NCBI RefSeq assembly: GCF_000160575.1
Contig: NZ_GG697130.1
Coordinates: forward strand, 107,076 to 171,075
Origin: Weissella paramesenteroides ATCC 33313
Lineage (GTDB): Bacteria > Bacillota > Bacilli > Lactobacillales > Lactobacillaceae
Length of the DNA: 64,000 bases
Direction of reading: 5' to 3'
Shown: piece by piece, positions 288 to 55,895 of the stretch
Position numbering within the stretch: the stretch's first letter is position 1
Layout: each line of letters starts with the position of its first letter
Translations under genes and position numbers: made by a program
Notes under the pieces: model-generated
Seen by the model: only the letters and a program-made list of their open reading frames with translations
What the model was told of the DNA's origin: nothing
Database searches by the model: none

Positions 288-3200
288 CTAATTTTTTACC
301 ATAGTGTCATCCAAATCAGTCAAACTAACTGAAACCATGGTTGAGACACCTGGCTCTTGCATTGTCACGCCATAAAGTACATCGGTTTCTGTCATTGTGC
401 CTTTACGATGGGTGATAACAATAAATTGTGTGCGATGGTTTACTTCATGCAGATAATGCGCAAATCGATCCACATTGGCCTCGTCTAACGCAGCTTCAGT
501 TTCATCAAGAATAGCAAAAGGTACTGGTCTAACTGCAAGAATTGCAAATAATAAACTAATTGCTGTTAAAGCTTTTTCACCACCTGATAATAAGCTCATT
601 TGTTGGAACTTTTTTCCTGGTGGCTGTGCTTTGATATCTATACCTGTTGTTAATAGATGATCTGGATCTGTCAAAATCAATGAGGCTTGTCCACCACCAA
701 ACATCTTGACAAATATTTTAGCGAACTGCTCCGCAATTGCATCAAATGTCGCCCGGAATCTCGTAACGACTTCGGTATCCATTTCAGACATAGTCTCTTG
801 TAAATTATCCTTAGCAGCAATCAAGTCTTGTTGCTGTTGCATTAAGAAGTCATAACGCTCTTTAACTGTTTGATATTCATCAATGGCGTTTAGGTTGACA
901 TGCCCAATTTCATCTAATCCCTGCTTTAATAACTTCAATTTTGTTCTAATTGTTGATATATCGAGATTTAACAATTCCGACTTAGCAAATTCAAATGAAG
1001 TATCATAAGTCGTTTCTAACGTTTGTTCGTTAGTATTAATCGATGATCGCAACTCACCTAGACGTCCATTATATTGCGAAATACTGGTCATCAGTTCACT
1101 AACCATATCTTGAATAAGACCAAGCTCACTATTTGTTGTATCATGCTGTTCTTGGACTTGTTCTAGTTCAAATTTTAAAGTTGCCAAACTTTGCTCAGCT
1201 GTTGCCTTTTGTCGTTGCACATCTTCTAGTTGTTGTGTCAAACGCTCTTGAACGTCGTTTTCATCCTGTGCCAAATCATTAATTTGCTGTTCAACCAACC
1301 TAATTTGACTTTGCTCAGCATTTTTCTGCTCAAGTAAATCATTTTTCCTAGTAACCAATGAGGATACGACGGCTTCAGCCTTAGCAAAAGCTGATTTAAA
1401 ATCACTAATTTGCTGATCTGCTTGCACAATTTCTGTCTCAATAGTCGACTGTTGCTGTAGATAATCATCTAAAGCTTTTTGTAAGTTTTGCTGTCGTACA
1501 GACAAATCTGTGATAGCCTGTTCATTTTGATCAACTGATGTTTTTTTATCTTGCAAATCAGCAACTAACTGATAGTCATATTGTAACGCAGCTTGCTCTT
1601 TTTTTACCTGTTTAAGTGTTGATTCTGCTAATTGTAAGCTAGCCTGGTCAGTCTGAAATTGTTCATTGGCTTTTAAAACCTGTGCCTGTTGTTTATTAAA
1701 TGCCTCTGTCACTTTTTGTAATTGCTGGTCAATCTGCTTAACCTGCTTTTCTAATGCTAACGTCGCTTGATGTAATTCAGCTTCTTGTAGCGTTAGTTGA
1801 TCTATCTCTGTCTTTTGCGAAAGTAAACCGTTACCGTGTTGCCGTGTTGCACCACCAGTCATTGAACCACCAGCGTTCATAATCTGACCATCCAAAGTAA
1901 CCAAGCGCACACGATATTGTAATTCCTTAGCAATTTGAATGGCTGCTGACATATCCGTCACAATCACTGTCGTTCCTAATAAATTTGCAATAATATTTTG
2001 GTAAGCAGACGCTGTTGTCACTAAATCCGATGCGATTCCGACAAACCCTGTTGATTGTCGCAAAATTGTCATTTGATAATCCGATAAACGACGGGCTTTA
2101 AGGGTAGTTTGTGGCAAAAAAGTAACCCGTCCTAAACGATGTTTGGCCAAATACTGAATGGCCGTCTTTCCAACCTGCTCGTTTTTTACAACAACATGTT
2201 GTAATGCCGATCCTAATGCCGTTTCAATCGCAATACGATGTTGATCATCAACAGAAATTAAATTTGCAACCACACCTTGAATACCTTCAAACTGTTGCTG
2301 TGCCTTCATTAAATTCTTAACACCTTGATAATAGCCATCATAATTTTCTGACAAATGTTGTAATGATTGCAGTCTCGTACTTAAACGTTGCTCCTGCTCC
2401 ATCTTCGTAAACCAGGCTTGCCGCTCGGTATCACGTTGTTGCTCCAATGCCTGCCCTTTTTTCTTAAGTGTTTCAAATGAGGCTTGCGCCATATTTAATG
2501 TTTTCTCAGCCTGTTGTAAATCATTATTTTTTTTATCAACTAAATTATTGGCATCTGATAATCGTTGCTCAATTTTGGCTTTGCGTTGCTGTAAGCGTAA
2601 TGATTCAGCATCACTACGCTTATTTTCTTGAACCAAGTAATTCTGTTTGTTTTTAGCGCTCGTTAAGTCCTGCATGGTTGCGACCAAATCATGACGAACC
2701 TGTTCAATTTCAGCACTAACTTTTGCTAGTTTAGTTCGGGGATGATTTTCGTTTGCTTGCTCAATTGCTTGTTGATAATGCGTGTATTCAGACTGCTGAT
2801 CTGCTAATTTTTGTAAACATTGTTGATAATTTGATTCAAGTGATGCCAGACGCTCGGTTGATACTTTTAATCGACTACTTAAATCTGTTGTTGTCTCAGT
2901 ACGATTCTTGCGCCGTTCGGACTGCAAATTTTGTTCACCAGTTAATTTTTCAACCTGTTTAATACTTTCGACCAAGACTTCTTGTAATTTTTGTTGTTGT
3001 TCAGTTAATGATAGTTGTTCTTGTCTAAACTTTTGTAACTCTTTTTTCTTGATATTCACAGCCTCTTGCTGCTTATCATACTCAGTTTGGGCTGTTGTCA
3101 GCTTCTTGGTCAGTTCGTCTTTTTCTTGATACCAATCTAATAGCTCAAGCACGATTCTTGATTGATCTAATTGATCATAAGAGGCTTTCGTTGTTAAGTA

Positions 3201-24376: not shown

Positions 24377-24703
24377 TTACTTTCCTTGAATTACCTTATC
24401 ACCCTTAATTTCAAAATGCGCCTTACCCATTTGCTGTACCTGAGAAGTGGTCAAATACCCTGCGTTCATTAGATTAGATATTGTAATCGTTTGTGTATCA
24501 GGAACGTCTTGTGCAATATGGAACATATTTACCTGACTTTGAAGAGTCTGCATTAACGCTGCACGTTGCCTGTCTTCAGCTGTTTTACGGATATGTGCAA
24601 CATTAGGATAAATCAATGCAACTAATAATCCAATAATAAACAGGGTCGTTACAACTTCAATTAATGTAAATCCTTTACGACGTGATACCTGACGGTTTTT
24701 CAT
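24377..24703 (-). CDS. comGC: Major competence pseudopilin ComGC
   Basis: Main subunit of the pseudopilus that pulls DNA through the wall. The start MKNRQVSRRKGFTLIE contains a perfect prepilin peptidase site (cut after Gly), followed by the hydrophobic VVTTLFIIGLLVALIYP. I take the ATG at 24703, which overlaps the end of the comGA-comGB frame by 4 bases; GGGAGG lies 7 bases upstream. This gives 108 residues, typical for ComGC. A prepilin peptidase (ComC) is not in the window. Confidence 0.93.
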   Translation of the reverse strand: MKNRQVSRRKGFTLIEVVTTLFIIGLLVALIYPNVAHIRKTAEDRQRAALMQTLQSQVNMFHIAQDVPDTQTITISNLMNAGYLTTSQVQQMGKAHFEIKGDKVIQGK

Positions 24704-26592
24704 TGCACAATGCCTCCCATATTTTTGTACATTGGTACAAGCGTTAAATAGTATAAGCCAATTACGACAACTCCAATAATGGCAAAACATATTGGTTGAA
24801 TTAAGGTTAAATATTTTTTTATTCGTTCATCTAGCAACTCAAATTTACGATTCGCCAAAATTTGAAAGTTTTCACCAATTTGTTGTTGCGTGTGACCCAG
24901 ATTAAACAATAAGGCACACTCTTTAGGCAAAAAAGCTACCGATAAAATGAAATCACGAATATTTTCACCATTACTTAATGCGTGCCAAGCCTTGTCCCCA
25001 ATGTATGAGATTAGTCCATTTGTTGTTTTTTTACGCACCTTTGCGACAATCGTAGCTAATTCAACACCGCTTGATAGTAACAATCCTAATTGCAAGCAAA
25101 TATAGTACTCTACGCTAAGGGTTAATAATGTACCAATAATTGGACACTTCATGATGATTTTTATCCGTGTTTCCCAACATAGCTTTGCAAACCACCAGAT
25201 ACTAAGTGAAAGACCCAGCATAGGCACTAAAGTTCCTATAATTAGCCATGAAGGCTTCAAATTTGTTTTCAATATTGCTAAGTCTGCGCCTGATTGCCCA
25301 AGCTCTGGCAATAAAACAGTTAAATAGCCAATTATTAACACCACTAAAAGTATCATCAAAATTAACGGATATAACAATATTTGACGTAATTTTCTGAACT
25401 GTACTAATTTTCCTCGTTCTCTGGCACCTAATTCTTGTAACAATGGTGTTAATTGTCCATGTATAATTGCAAAATCAAGTTGTTGCACAATCTCGGTTCT
25501 GATAAATGGAGACATCACTTCAGCCAAGGTAAGTCCTGCGGTTAGGCCAAAAATGATATTTTCCACGTCCTTTAGAGGTAGTTTAAGTAAAATTTGTAAT
25601 GTCATTAATGAACTTTCTAAATCAAAACCAACTTTAGATAAATGACATAAATTTTCAAAAAATTCAACTTGTAACTTACGTGGCCACTGTGTTTGTTTCT
25701 GCATTTTTAAATCCACCAATAATTTTTTCAAACTTATTCCACTATTTAAATTTAAATGCACATATGAATGATTTTCATGCTGCATCATTTCTTGATAACC
25801 CAAACCAACAATCACCTGATTTAATAAATCTACTGGAATGCCAAAAGCCCGTAACCGATACCAAATCCCCGTAATAGACATTGCATGAACTGTACTTAAA
25901 ATTAAGTGACCACTCAACGCTGCTTGAACAACAACGTGCGCTGTTTCTGCATCACGAATTTCGCCAATAATCATAACATCAGGATGATGCCGTAATGCCA
26001 ACTTAAGCAGTCGATCATAACTCATTTGAGCAGCATTATTTACCTGTAACTGTAAAAATTGTGGTACGACTAATTCAACAGGATCCTCAATAGTAAGTAC
26101 CATTTGATCATTTAAATGATTTGCTGCGACATGATAGAGTGTGGTTGTTTTACCAGAACCCATCTGACCAGCAAGCAGAATCAAACCTTGCTTCAATTTT
26201 ATTAGTTGCGCCAGTTCATTCAATTTATGAACAGGTCGCCAATCTAAATAGTTATCTTGCATATCATAGATAAGGCGGATTACTATTGATTCTCGATTTA
26301 AAAAATCTGCTACACTTGAAATTCGTAAATGAAGGGATTGTGAATCTAAAAAATATTGCCACCGTCCAAGCTGTGGGCGACGAGCCTCACTAATGTCCAT
26401 ATGTGCTGAAAATTTTATATGACGGATAAGTGCTTCCCCAATTTCAGCTTCAAAATGCCTTACTTTTTCCAAACCATTAGTCGAATAGTAAATCATTTGA
26501 AAGCCATCAGAACATGGCCAAATATACACGTCACTTGCATGCTGTTTTGATGCCAAATCAATGATATCGTAAAACATTTTCTGTATTTTCAT
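24700..26592 (-). CDS. comGA-comGB: ComGA-ComGB fused in one frame: competence traffic ATPase and membrane platform
   Basis: One uninterrupted 630-residue frame contains two proteins that are usually separate. Residues 1-296 are ComGA, the secretion ATPase that powers pseudopilus assembly: Walker A GQMGSGKTT near 142, the Asp box EDPVEL, and Walker B DVMIIGEIRDAE. Residues about 297-630 are ComGB, the polytopic platform protein, with a GSPII-F style soluble domain (FENLCHLSKVGFDLESSL) and membrane helices near 405-430, 450-470 and 600-620. Between them, an ATG at 25704 has GGTGGA 7 bases upstream. A separate ComGB of 334 residues could therefore still be made. AGGAGG precedes the ComGA start at 26592 by 11 bases. 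Confidence 0.9.
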   Translation of the reverse strand: MKIQKMFYDIIDLASKQHASDVYIWPCSDGFQMIYYSTNGLEKVRHFEAEIGEALIRHIKFSAHMDISEARRPQLGRWQYFLDSQSLHLRISSVADFLNRESIVIRLIYDMQDNYLDWRPVHKLNELAQLIKLKQGLILLAGQMGSGKTTTLYHVAANHLNDQMVLTIEDPVELVVPQFLQLQVNNAAQMSYDRLLKLALRHHPDVMIIGEIRDAETAHVVVQAALSGHLILSTVHAMSITGIWYRLRAFGIPVDLLNQVIVGLGYQEMMQHENHSYVHLNLNSGISLKKLLVDLKMQKQTQWPRKLQVEFFENLCHLSKVGFDLESSLMTLQILLKLPLKDVENIIFGLTAGLTLAEVMSPFIRTEIVQQLDFAIIHGQLTPLLQELGARERGKLVQFRKLRQILLYPLILMILLVVLIIGYLTVLLPELGQSGADLAILKTNLKPSWLIIGTLVPMLGLSLSIWWFAKLCWETRIKIIMKCPIIGTLLTLSVEYYICLQLGLLLSSGVELATIVAKVRKKTTNGLISYIGDKAWHALSNGENIRDFILSVAFLPKECALLFNLGHTQQQIGENFQILANRKFELLDERIKKYLTLIQPICFAIIGVVVIGLYYLTLVPMYKNMGGIVQ

Positions 26593-26656
26593 GCTATTTC
26601 TCACCTCCTAACCTTTACAAAGACGTCACCCATCCTAAAAAGTCTATTTTTTAATC

Positions 26657-26711: not shown

Positions 26712-28163
26712 CTAACTAACTGCAATAACAATAAAATTCAAAACAAACAACAATGAAACTATCCACAAAATAACACTGATTTCGCTGAACTTACGCTTCA
26801 CAGTTTTAATTAACACATAGAAGATAAAGCCGGCTGCAATTCCATATGAAATTGAATATGAGAAGGCCATGAACGCGGAAGTAAAGAATGCTGGTACTGC
26901 TACTTCCATGTCATCCCAATCAATTGCTTTAAATTCATTCATCATCATGATACCAACAACAACTAGGATAGGAGCTGTTGCAGCACTTGGAATAACATTA
27001 ACTAGTGGTGCAGCAATAATCGACAACAAGAATCCAATTGCTACAACAACAGCCGTTAATCCGGTACGACCACCTGCTTTAATACCTGTTGAAGCTTCAA
27101 TAAAAGTTGTCGTATTTGAAGTTCCAAAAATTCCAGCAAACATCGTTGCAAAAGTATCAGCAACCAAGCCACGATCCATTTTTGACTTAAAGCCCTTATT
27201 TTCATAGAATTCCTTTTGGTCTGCCTTTGAGAAAATACCACTAGAAATACCTGTTCCAATAAAGGTTCCAATGGCATCAAACAAACCTGAAAGTCCCATT
27301 GAGAACACTGTCAAAATGACAATCAAAATATTTTTGGGTGAGTTAAACATTGACCACAAGCCATTAGAACCTAAAGCTTGACCAAAAATAGAACCAAAAT
27401 CATGGAATGTTGTCGAAAATGATGATAATCCATTAACATGAGTATTTGTCACACCCATTGGAATACCAATAATCGTTGTTACAAAAACAGAAATCAAAAA
27501 TGCTCCGGGAACATTAGCGACAACCAATAATACCAAGAGTACTAACCCAATCAGCGCTAATAATACTGATGGATCTGTGAATGTTGTTATCTCAGGTGTC
27601 GTACCACCATTACCGGTTAACGTTTCAATAGCTTTCGCTCCACCACCATGAAATGGTGAATTATTTAAGGAAATAATATTTTCTGAATTAACTAAATAAT
27701 TAATAAATCCAGCATTCTTTAAACCAATATAAGCAATAAACAACCCAATACCTGCTGCAATAGCGTGTTTTAGTTGTGCTGGAATTGATTTAACAATCAA
27801 TGATCGAACTTTTGTTAATGTGATAATGACATCTACCAAACCAACTAAAAATACCATCCCCAGGGCTTGTTGCCAAGTATAACCTAAACCAAAAACAATC
27901 GTGTATGTAAACATGGCTTGCATACCAATCGAAGGGGCAAGTGCATATGGCAAATTAGCGAACAAACCTGTAATCAAGGTACCTGTAACAGCTGTTAAAA
28001 TAGTTGCCAAAAAAACACCTTGACTAGGCATACCTGTCAACGAAAGCACTGCAGGATTTAAAAAGATAATATAAGCCATCGCCACAAAGGTCGTAATACC
28101 TGCAATGACCTCAGTCCGTACGGTTGTATGGTTTTCCGATAGCTTAAAGAAACGCTCCAACAT
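26712..28163 (-). CDS. NCS2 family purine permease (guanine/hypoxanthine type)
   Basis: Polytopic proton-coupled nucleobase importer of the AzgA/PbuG branch. The N-terminus ERFFKLSENHTTVRTEVIAGITTFVAMAY is written here only in part: motif VIAGITTFVAMAYII near residue 20 is diagnostic. About 12 membrane segments are visible. GTSNTTTFIEASTGIKAGGRTG near residue 345 contains the family signature NTTTFIES-like loop, and FDAIGTF is also present. At 483 residues it is slightly longer than average. It is preceded by a structured leader with a terminator hairpin, which suggests purine-responsive control. The exact substrate cannot be read from sequence. Confidence 0.9.
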   Translation of the reverse strand: MLERFFKLSENHTTVRTEVIAGITTFVAMAYIIFLNPAVLSLTGMPSQGVFLATILTAVTGTLITGLFANLPYALAPSIGMQAMFTYTIVFGLGYTWQQALGMVFLVGLVDVIITLTKVRSLIVKSIPAQLKHAIAAGIGLFIAYIGLKNAGFINYLVNSENIISLNNSPFHGGGAKAIETLTGNGGTTPEITTFTDPSVLLALIGLVLLVLLVVANVPGAFLISVFVTTIIGIPMGVTNTHVNGLSSFSTTFHDFGSIFGQALGSNGLWSMFNSPKNILIVILTVFSMGLSGLFDAIGTFIGTGISSGIFSKADQKEFYENKGFKSKMDRGLVADTFATMFAGIFGTSNTTTFIEASTGIKAGGRTGLTAVVVAIGFLLSIIAAPLVNVIPSAATAPILVVVGIMMMNEFKAIDWDDMEVAVPAFFTSAFMAFSYSISYGIAAGFIFYVLIKTVKRKFSEISVILWIVSLLFVLNFIVIAVS

Positions 28164-28185
28164 AATAAGTTCTTCTCCCTAAAAA

Positions 28186-28216
28186 AATCATGTTAGCATA
28201 CTCTGCCAACATGATT
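28186..28216 (-). terminator. Leader terminator (attenuator) before the purine permease
   Basis: On the minus strand AATCATGTTGGC and GCTAACATGATT form a 12-bp stem (one G-U) around AGAGTAT, then seven T. It lies 23 bases before the permease start, after the candidate promoter, so it must be bypassed for expression. Its 5' arm and loop contain TGGCAGA, which can pair with TCTGCCA upstream. Confidence 0.85.
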
Positions 28217-28325
28217 AAAGATCAACTAATATATTGCTAGCACCCTTATGGTACAACTAAATAACATAATTAATGTTTAAGTCTGTGGCAGAACACGTTA
28301 ACGACTTCTATTTAAATAAATAATA
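28217..28325 (-). promoter_or_regulatory. Promoter and structured leader of the purine permease, candidate riboswitch
   Basis: A promoter TTGAAT-17-TATTAT lies at 28320-28348. The predicted RNA starts near 28313 with TTAAATA, which pairs with TATTTAG at 28263-28257 to close a domain. Inside is a hairpin, AAGTC paired with GACTT, containing GTG paired with CAC. Its apical loop holds TCTGCCA (28292-28286), which is complementary to TGGCAGA (28208-28202) in the terminator. The purine riboswitch core is not recognisable. The layout (ligand domain, antiterminator, terminator) is an inference. Confidence 0.55.
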
Positions 28326-28372
28326 TTTTAACATTATTCCTAATTCAATTATTAGTCAATAATATTTTCAAT

Positions 28373-28407
28373 AAAAAAAGAACTTGTTCAGTAAACAAGT
28401 TCTTTTA
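28373..28407 (-). terminator. Intrinsic terminator after yebC
   Basis: Minus strand AAAAGAACTTGTT and AACAAGTTCTTTT pair around a short loop and run into TTTTT. It starts 17 bases after the yebC stop. Confidence 0.93.
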
Positions 28408-28423: not shown

Positions 28424-29146
28424 CTATTCAGCTGTTGTAAATACTGCTTGCACGTCGTCATTTTCTTCCAACTCAGCAACCAAATTATCCAATGATTCTT
28501 GCTTATCCTCTGGTACAGCCATTGGATTTTGCGCAACCATTGTCACTTCGTCAATACTAAATTGGTAACCCTTGGCTGCCAAAGCATCACGAACTTCAGG
28601 GAAAGACTTAGGATCAGTGTAAATTTCAAATTGATCATCAAAAGTCTTCATATCTTCTGCCCCAGCATCTAACATATCTTCAAATAATTGATCTTCATCA
28701 ATTTCAGTATCTTCATCACGTTCGATTTCAAGGTAACCCTTACGGTCGAATTGGAATGAAACTGATCCTGAAGTTCCAAGCTCACCACCAAAGTGCTTGA
28801 ATGATGAACGTACAGAAGAAGCTGTACGGTTTGTGTTGTCAGTCAAGGCTTCAACCAAAACTGCAATACCTGCTGGACCATAACCTTCATAAGTTAACTC
28901 TTGATAATTAGCCCCGTTTGCTCCGGAAGCCTTATCAAGTGCTCGTTGGATATTATCCTTAGGCATGTTAGCAGCCTTTGCCTTGTCGATAACGAGACGC
29001 AAACTTGAGTTTGAATCTGGATCAACACCACCAGCTTTTGCTGCCGTATACAAATCACGAGCTAACTTTTGGAAAATCTTACCACGCTTCGCATCTTGGG
29101 CGTTCTTACGTCCTTGGATGTTATGCCATTTACTATGTCCTGACAT
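28424..29146 (-). CDS. yebC: YebC/TACO1 family protein
   Basis: Conserved protein once called a transcriptional regulator and more recently tied to translation of proline-rich stretches in several bacteria. The start [22 protein letters not shown] is diagnostic in its first part (GHSKWHNIQ). [19 protein letters not shown] follows near residue 85. The C-terminal part is acidic. At 240 residues it is full length. It stands alone with its own terminator. Confidence 0.95.
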
Positions 29147-55685: not shown

Positions 55686-55705
55686 ACTCATTAGTTTTTA
55701 GTATT

Positions 55706-55878
55706 GTCGATAGCTCTCCGCAGCCGACTATTTTGCCGCGACAGTCCGCACACTATTAATGTACACACCAACAATGAATATTACCACACTCATCATTTCG
55801 GCAACCGCCCCTTTCGTCTAAAATCCTAACCTGTCAGCTCCTTTAGACTAATTTTGTTGGTTGCAACCTCTATATCCT
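55706..55878 (-). promoter_or_regulatory. Lysine riboswitch (L box) aptamer
   Basis: The minus strand shows conserved L-box segments in order: AGAGGTTGCAACC, GGAGCTGACAG, GACGAAAGGGGCGG, TTGCCGAAATG, GGACTGTCGCGG and CGGAGAGCTATC. The P1 strands are ATAG and CTAT. With the terminator at 55644-55685, lysine binding should stop transcription, so the permease is made when lysine is scarce. Confidence 0.93.
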
Positions 55879-55895
55879 ATTTAATTTGTACCATA

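Follow-up and report, generated by a model that had tools for sequence, protein, structure and literature searches.

What signal is read by the minus-strand leader located between yebC (28424-29146) and the gene of an AzgA-type purine permease (26712-28163), and how would that signal reach the gene? In the window, i.e. the whole stretch of 64,000 nucleotides from Weissella paramesenteroides analysed here, the gene is encoded on the minus strand and its product has 483 amino acids, belongs to the Xan_ur_permease family (PF00860, E 1.5e-34) and finds its nearest solved structures in the adenine/guanine permeases AZG1/AZG2 (E 3.5e-53). The nearest named relatives of the window's genome are W. thailandensis, W. 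fangxianensis and W. hellenica. An initial annotation of this DNA described an attenuator-type leader behind a good promoter, lacking a recognisable purine riboswitch core. The promoter predicted from the sequence (28331-28359) consists of TTGACT (28359-28354), a 17-nt spacer and TAATGT (28336-28331); its -35 box is indeed good, but its -10 box is weak, and a TTGA..-16/18-TAnnnT pair is found upstream of the conserved element described below in 24 of 26 leaders. The permease has a ribosome-binding site, AGGGAG, at 28175-28180 (minus strand). Between yebC and the promoter there is a hairpin with T-runs on both strands (28376-28406), likely a bidirectional terminator. Elsewhere on the minus strand of the window we noticed a single 634-aa frame (24700-26604) with matches to ComGA (13-275) and ComGB (312-629), an apparent comGA-comGB fusion, and a lysine riboswitch (RF00168, 101 bits) at 55703-55880.

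Reading all leaders together yielded a conserved core, GTCGTTAACGTGTNNNGCCACAGAC, present in the window as GTCGTTAACGTGTTCTGCCACAGAC (28281-28305, minus strand), which we consider the anti-antiterminator and the presumed sensor. It is the same 25-nt element, GUCGUUAACGUGUNNNGCCACAGAC, that the initial annotation had taken for an inner hairpin enclosed in a larger domain. Mean pairwise identity among 26 leaders is 97% in the core, as compared to 40% and 35%, respectively, in the stretches of 25 nt that precede and follow it, and 22 of the 25 core positions are invariant (23 distinct sequences), with only positions 14, 15 and 16 being variable. The core contains the palindrome GTTAAC and is closed by the hairpin P1 (28279-28307), in which AAGTC (28307-28303) pairs with GACTT (28283-28279); three inner pairs of P1 are constant across the leaders, and one outer pair varies as GC/AU/UA/GU/UG. 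The inner helix GTG (28296-28294)/CAC (28287-28285) is likewise present, but it is invariant in the leaders, so that covariation speaks neither for nor against it; it is not part of the predicted minimum, and folding alone gives it no preference. As GTG/CAC never varies, the inner fold of the core must be regarded as unproven. The outer stem proposed to close the larger domain, TTAAATA/TATTTAG (28315-28309 with 28263-28257), can be formed in the window, but it is not conserved in relatives, and the conserved part amounts to a single hairpin of 25-29 nt (about 28 nt), with an asymmetric internal loop and a hexaloop.

A DNA search of the genus detected the leader in 26 of 28 Weissella genomes, in distant species as one matching stretch only, of about 27-50 bases, and the core was also found in two of five genomes of a second genus (including P. 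beninensis) and in Furfurilactobacillus siliginis. Among 397 genomes of the family, the core pattern with up to three mismatches matched 27 genomes from three genera, with one copy in each, and the reversed pattern, used as a control, gave one match. Every core precedes the same orthologous permease, except in assembly G008, which is 66% complete and in which the sequence 3' of the core is broken. The core is absent from Weissella genomes G002 and G024 and from G081, G111 and G160 of the second genus, which encode only distant paralogs of the permease. In F. siliginis the core accompanies a permease of 79% identity, and other genomes of that genus possess a 53%-identical permease without the core, hence the gene looks imported together with its leader, and comparison of these sequences suggests a joint transfer. 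The F. siliginis permease (L023, 2917-4460) is split into two frames by a frameshift or a sequencing error, and its leader core is intact. The genes flanking the permease differ among Weissella, F. siliginis, P. beninensis and genome G137, and no regulator gene is common to the neighbourhoods read in these four. Outside the known lineage, a covariance model gave ten weak matches in 395 genomes of the order, fewer than expected by chance at that threshold, and eight of them, inspected individually, revealed no leader of the core type; in 398 genomes of the class the core pattern (up to three mismatches) retrieved only its own genome and two chance matches with three mismatches, and the core was not found in plasmids and viral contigs.

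Downstream of the core, the leaders comprise a variable spacer hairpin, a first terminator in many species, and a last terminator or hairpin that adjoins the ribosome site. In the window, the spacer hairpin folds at 28221-28274 (minus strand, -11.0 kcal/mol) and its sequence is not conserved; the first terminator seems to have been lost in the window's own clade; and the last one, H2 (28216-28186), stands directly before the ribosome site. The terminator had been described as 12 bp followed by seven U; as read here, H2 has 13 pairs, including a G-U, a loop of five and a run of TTTTT (28185-28181), with a predicted energy of -16.4 kcal/mol. Two terminator-like sites were found in 500 bases, as compared to 0.2 expected. 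The complementarity of TCTGCCA (28292-28286) to TGGCAGA (28208-28202), pointed out earlier as capable of breaking the terminator, is present and extends much further: core positions 28302-28286 face the antiterminator partner TGGCAGAGTATGCTAAC (28192-28208, minus strand), and the duplex of the window's core with the downstream region reaches -24.1 kcal/mol versus -15.1 for shuffled downstream DNA (z -3.4, with none of 200 shuffles as good). The whole duplex has a mean z of -1.9 over 26 leaders and is near zero in several; pairing of the core is weak in P. beninensis, W. viridescens A, hellenica, MAGq454, G004 and G137.

The two halves of the core have different partners. The first terminator has at its foot UUAACGAC or one of the variants GUUGACGAC, GUUAGCGAC, AUUAACGGC, GUUAAUGAC and GUUGAUGGC, and this segment pairs with the 5' half of the core, GUCGUUAAC, with the variants retaining the pairing by means of G-U. 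The best 9-nt match to this half has on average 7.88 pairs in the 26 leaders, compared to 7.33 +/- 0.12 in shuffled sequences (none of 300 as high), and in many leaders this match falls at a terminator's foot. The last terminator is the partner of the core's 3' half, and it is here that the three variable positions find their partners in H2: position 14 forms A-U, U-A or U-G (unpaired in eight leaders), position 15 forms C-G in five of the six cases with C, or U-A/U-G (unpaired in six), and position 16 forms C-G in all four cases with C, or U-A/U-G (unpaired in three). When core variants were exchanged between species, the native ones fitted their own downstream segment better than expected (permutation P=0.0005, and P=0.007 with near-identical leaders collapsed), an outcome that depends partly on shared ancestry. 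This covariation bears on the idea that the core works at the level of DNA, as the operator of a repressor, and that the pairings in the RNA are incidental. A short, invariant element with a palindrome, situated just 3' of the promoter, would fit an operator, but its variable positions change in concert with a segment close to the ribosome site, an outer pair of P1 covaries as well, and the spacing between the -35 box and the core differs by about 10 nt among leaders, which makes an operator very improbable.

Switching was examined by thermodynamic models only, and these agree with the exclusive pairings. The leader of the window folds better than its shuffles (z -3.4), with the core paired to the terminator region in the predicted minimum (-39.5 kcal/mol without the last terminator and -34.2 with it). 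In partial transcripts reaching to the middle of a terminator, the core of most leaders is predicted to be bound to the terminator arm, with P1 open, and when the core hairpin is enforced in constrained folds, the modelled terminators return. In some species the first terminator forms even when the full leader is folded without constraint, hence the switch in those species would have to be kinetic. An intrinsic terminator and an exclusive antiterminator are thus present between promoter and gene and are conserved in relatives, as in transcription attenuators in general, and the core pairings, their covariation and the constrained folds together argue that the leader is very probably a transcription attenuator with the core as anti-antiterminator, OFF when bound. 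Without the effector, the nascent RNA would pair the core with the arms of the downstream terminators, and transcription would go on; the foot of the first terminator, in leaders that have one, would take up the 5' half of the core, and the apex of the last terminator its 3' half, UUYYGCCAC. In the presence of the effector, the core would hold its own hairpin, so that the terminators would form and transcription would stop before the permease gene. As stabilisation of the core gives termination, judging from the anatomy of the leader, we infer that control is exerted in the OFF direction and that the effector should repress the permease.

The long invariant stretch of the core, which is mostly unpaired in the predicted core fold, would also suit the target site of a trans-acting small RNA, and a leader might alternatively work through a leader peptide. 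Neither possibility appears at all probable: in none of the Weissella genomes is there a second conserved copy of the core or its complement above the control rate, and upstream of the core there is no ribosome site, nor could we see by eye a downstream-conserved frame running through it.

As to the signal, the most obvious candidate is a purine riboswitch, and the initial annotation considered a strongly diverged purine aptamer among its possibilities. Rfam searches of the leader gave no purine riboswitch at the gathering threshold or at E up to 10 and no T-box, and six related leaders gave no match at E up to 1. The purine riboswitch model RF00167 (gathering score 37 bits) spans 102 positions, compared to 25-29 nt of the core, which lacks the three-way junction with its TTTCTACC-type J2/3 and CCGTAAA-type L3. 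A hit to the purine riboswitch model, or loss of the complementary segments in relatives, had been named in advance as grounds for abandoning the attenuator, and neither was found: there is no Rfam match, and among the leaders of orthologous permeases the complementarity of the segments is preserved, with covariation. A similarity to RF00167 exists at the level of function, as this riboswitch governs genes of purine transport within the same genomes and, in a variant form, precedes a diverged ortholog of the permease in two sister genera (34.5 and 30.9 bits versus 37, i.e. below the threshold), with C at the specificity position. In the loci L172/L173 (minus strand, about 3034-3131), this variant has a short P3 loop, seemingly without the usual loop-loop partner. 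Such kinship of the gene and use of a guanine-riboswitch variant by the sister genera would favour derivation of the core from a canonical purine riboswitch, but the missing junction and blocks stand against it, and canonical copies coexist with the core lineage in all 28 Weissella genomes (one to three per genome, mostly two); we therefore consider an extremely diverged riboswitch of this class exceedingly improbable. The window's own genome carries canonical copies before pbuX-xpt and before the IMP dehydrogenase gene, and in locus L200 (2002-3333) one lies directly 5' of a Weissella IMP dehydrogenase gene. Since Weissella has kept these riboswitches, the core is not a simple replacement of a lost class, and it may read a different purine signal.

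Orthologs of the permease with 52-62% identity carry other devices. Besides the riboswitch variant, many orthologs of about 53% identity have PurBox-like CGAAC sites in their leaders, about one per leader versus about 0.1 expected (in a motif count that used no PurR model). Given these devices before the diverged orthologs, the permease family is probably under purine control, and we take the signal sensed by the core to be purine sufficiency. We thus propose an attenuator that turns the AzgA-type permease off in purine plenty, with the core acting both as the sensor, presumably of a directly bound small molecule, and as the anti-antiterminator, and we assign to this reading a probability of roughly one half.

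The main rival is the same attenuator with a protein in place of a metabolite on the core, either a PyrR-like one or some other conserved regulator that binds RNA. In pyr attenuation, PyrR with UMP acts by stabilising an internally bulged anti-antiterminator hairpin (PMC7430163). The architecture of the leader corresponds to it: a small conserved anti-antiterminator hairpin, which the antiterminator excludes, precedes the terminator, so that, in the models, binding would give the terminator and lack of binding the antiterminator, as in the B. subtilis pyr operon. The core also resembles PyrR binding loops and RAT sites in its size, shape and near-invariance. A search of 25 genomes, with and without the core, found one PyrR above the cut-off in every genome, so that PyrR is available but does not discriminate. 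The core, however, lacks the ARUCCAGAGAGGYU motif of the binding loop and matches no PyrR or other model of Rfam; there is only one target in each genome, the loci read have no adjoining regulator gene in common, and the target is a purine-type permease and not a set of pyrimidine genes. RAT sites of BglG/LicT antiterminators are short, near-invariant hairpins in terminator control, like the core, but they differ from it in sequence and follow the opposite logic, as antitermination here requires the core to unfold and to pair with other segments. On balance, a protein-bound core appears to us a doubtful, if serious, contender.

We rate a small molecule that binds the core directly, probably a purine base or nucleotide, somewhat ahead of a protein, because each genome has one target, the neighbourhoods read share no regulator, and the core is intact after the apparent transfer; direct binding of a purine is our leading guess. 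Near-total invariance of the core within one lineage counts against it, being also suited to a protein site, and so does the fact that a single hairpin of 25-29 nt would be smaller than any natural aptamer known to us. The preQ1-I riboswitch is, like the core, a very small hairpin aptamer that precedes a transporter or synthesis gene, but the leader has no Rfam match to preQ1 models. A pseudoknot of the preQ1-I kind, between the loop and an A-rich tail, was considered and dropped, as no consistent pairing or covariation was seen by eye. Only tentatively do we suggest that the 25-29-nt core alone represents a new class of aptamers for a purine compound, which would rank with the smallest natural ones and the halves of which pair with different terminators of a tandem-terminator switch.

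Comparison of the genomes thus documents, at the level of sequence, a conserved core strictly linked to one permease, and predicted terminators with mutually exclusive, covarying pairings. The mechanism, transcription attenuation, is of a known kind, and the sensor is new to the resources searched; among open-licence papers we found none that deals with such a leader, an absence that constitutes weak evidence. Regulatory RNAs restricted to one lineage are readily overlooked by genome-wide motif scans, and the leader described here is sharply defined and clearly associated with a gene, its readout is clear, and its very short RNA (29 nt) can be synthesised for direct tests with purines. If a metabolite binds the core, it would represent a new, very small aptamer class that coexists with the classical purine riboswitch, and if a protein does, a new purine regulator that binds RNA would be there to be discovered. 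The distribution of the devices suggests that, within one bacterial family, a single permease lineage has come under three unrelated means of control.
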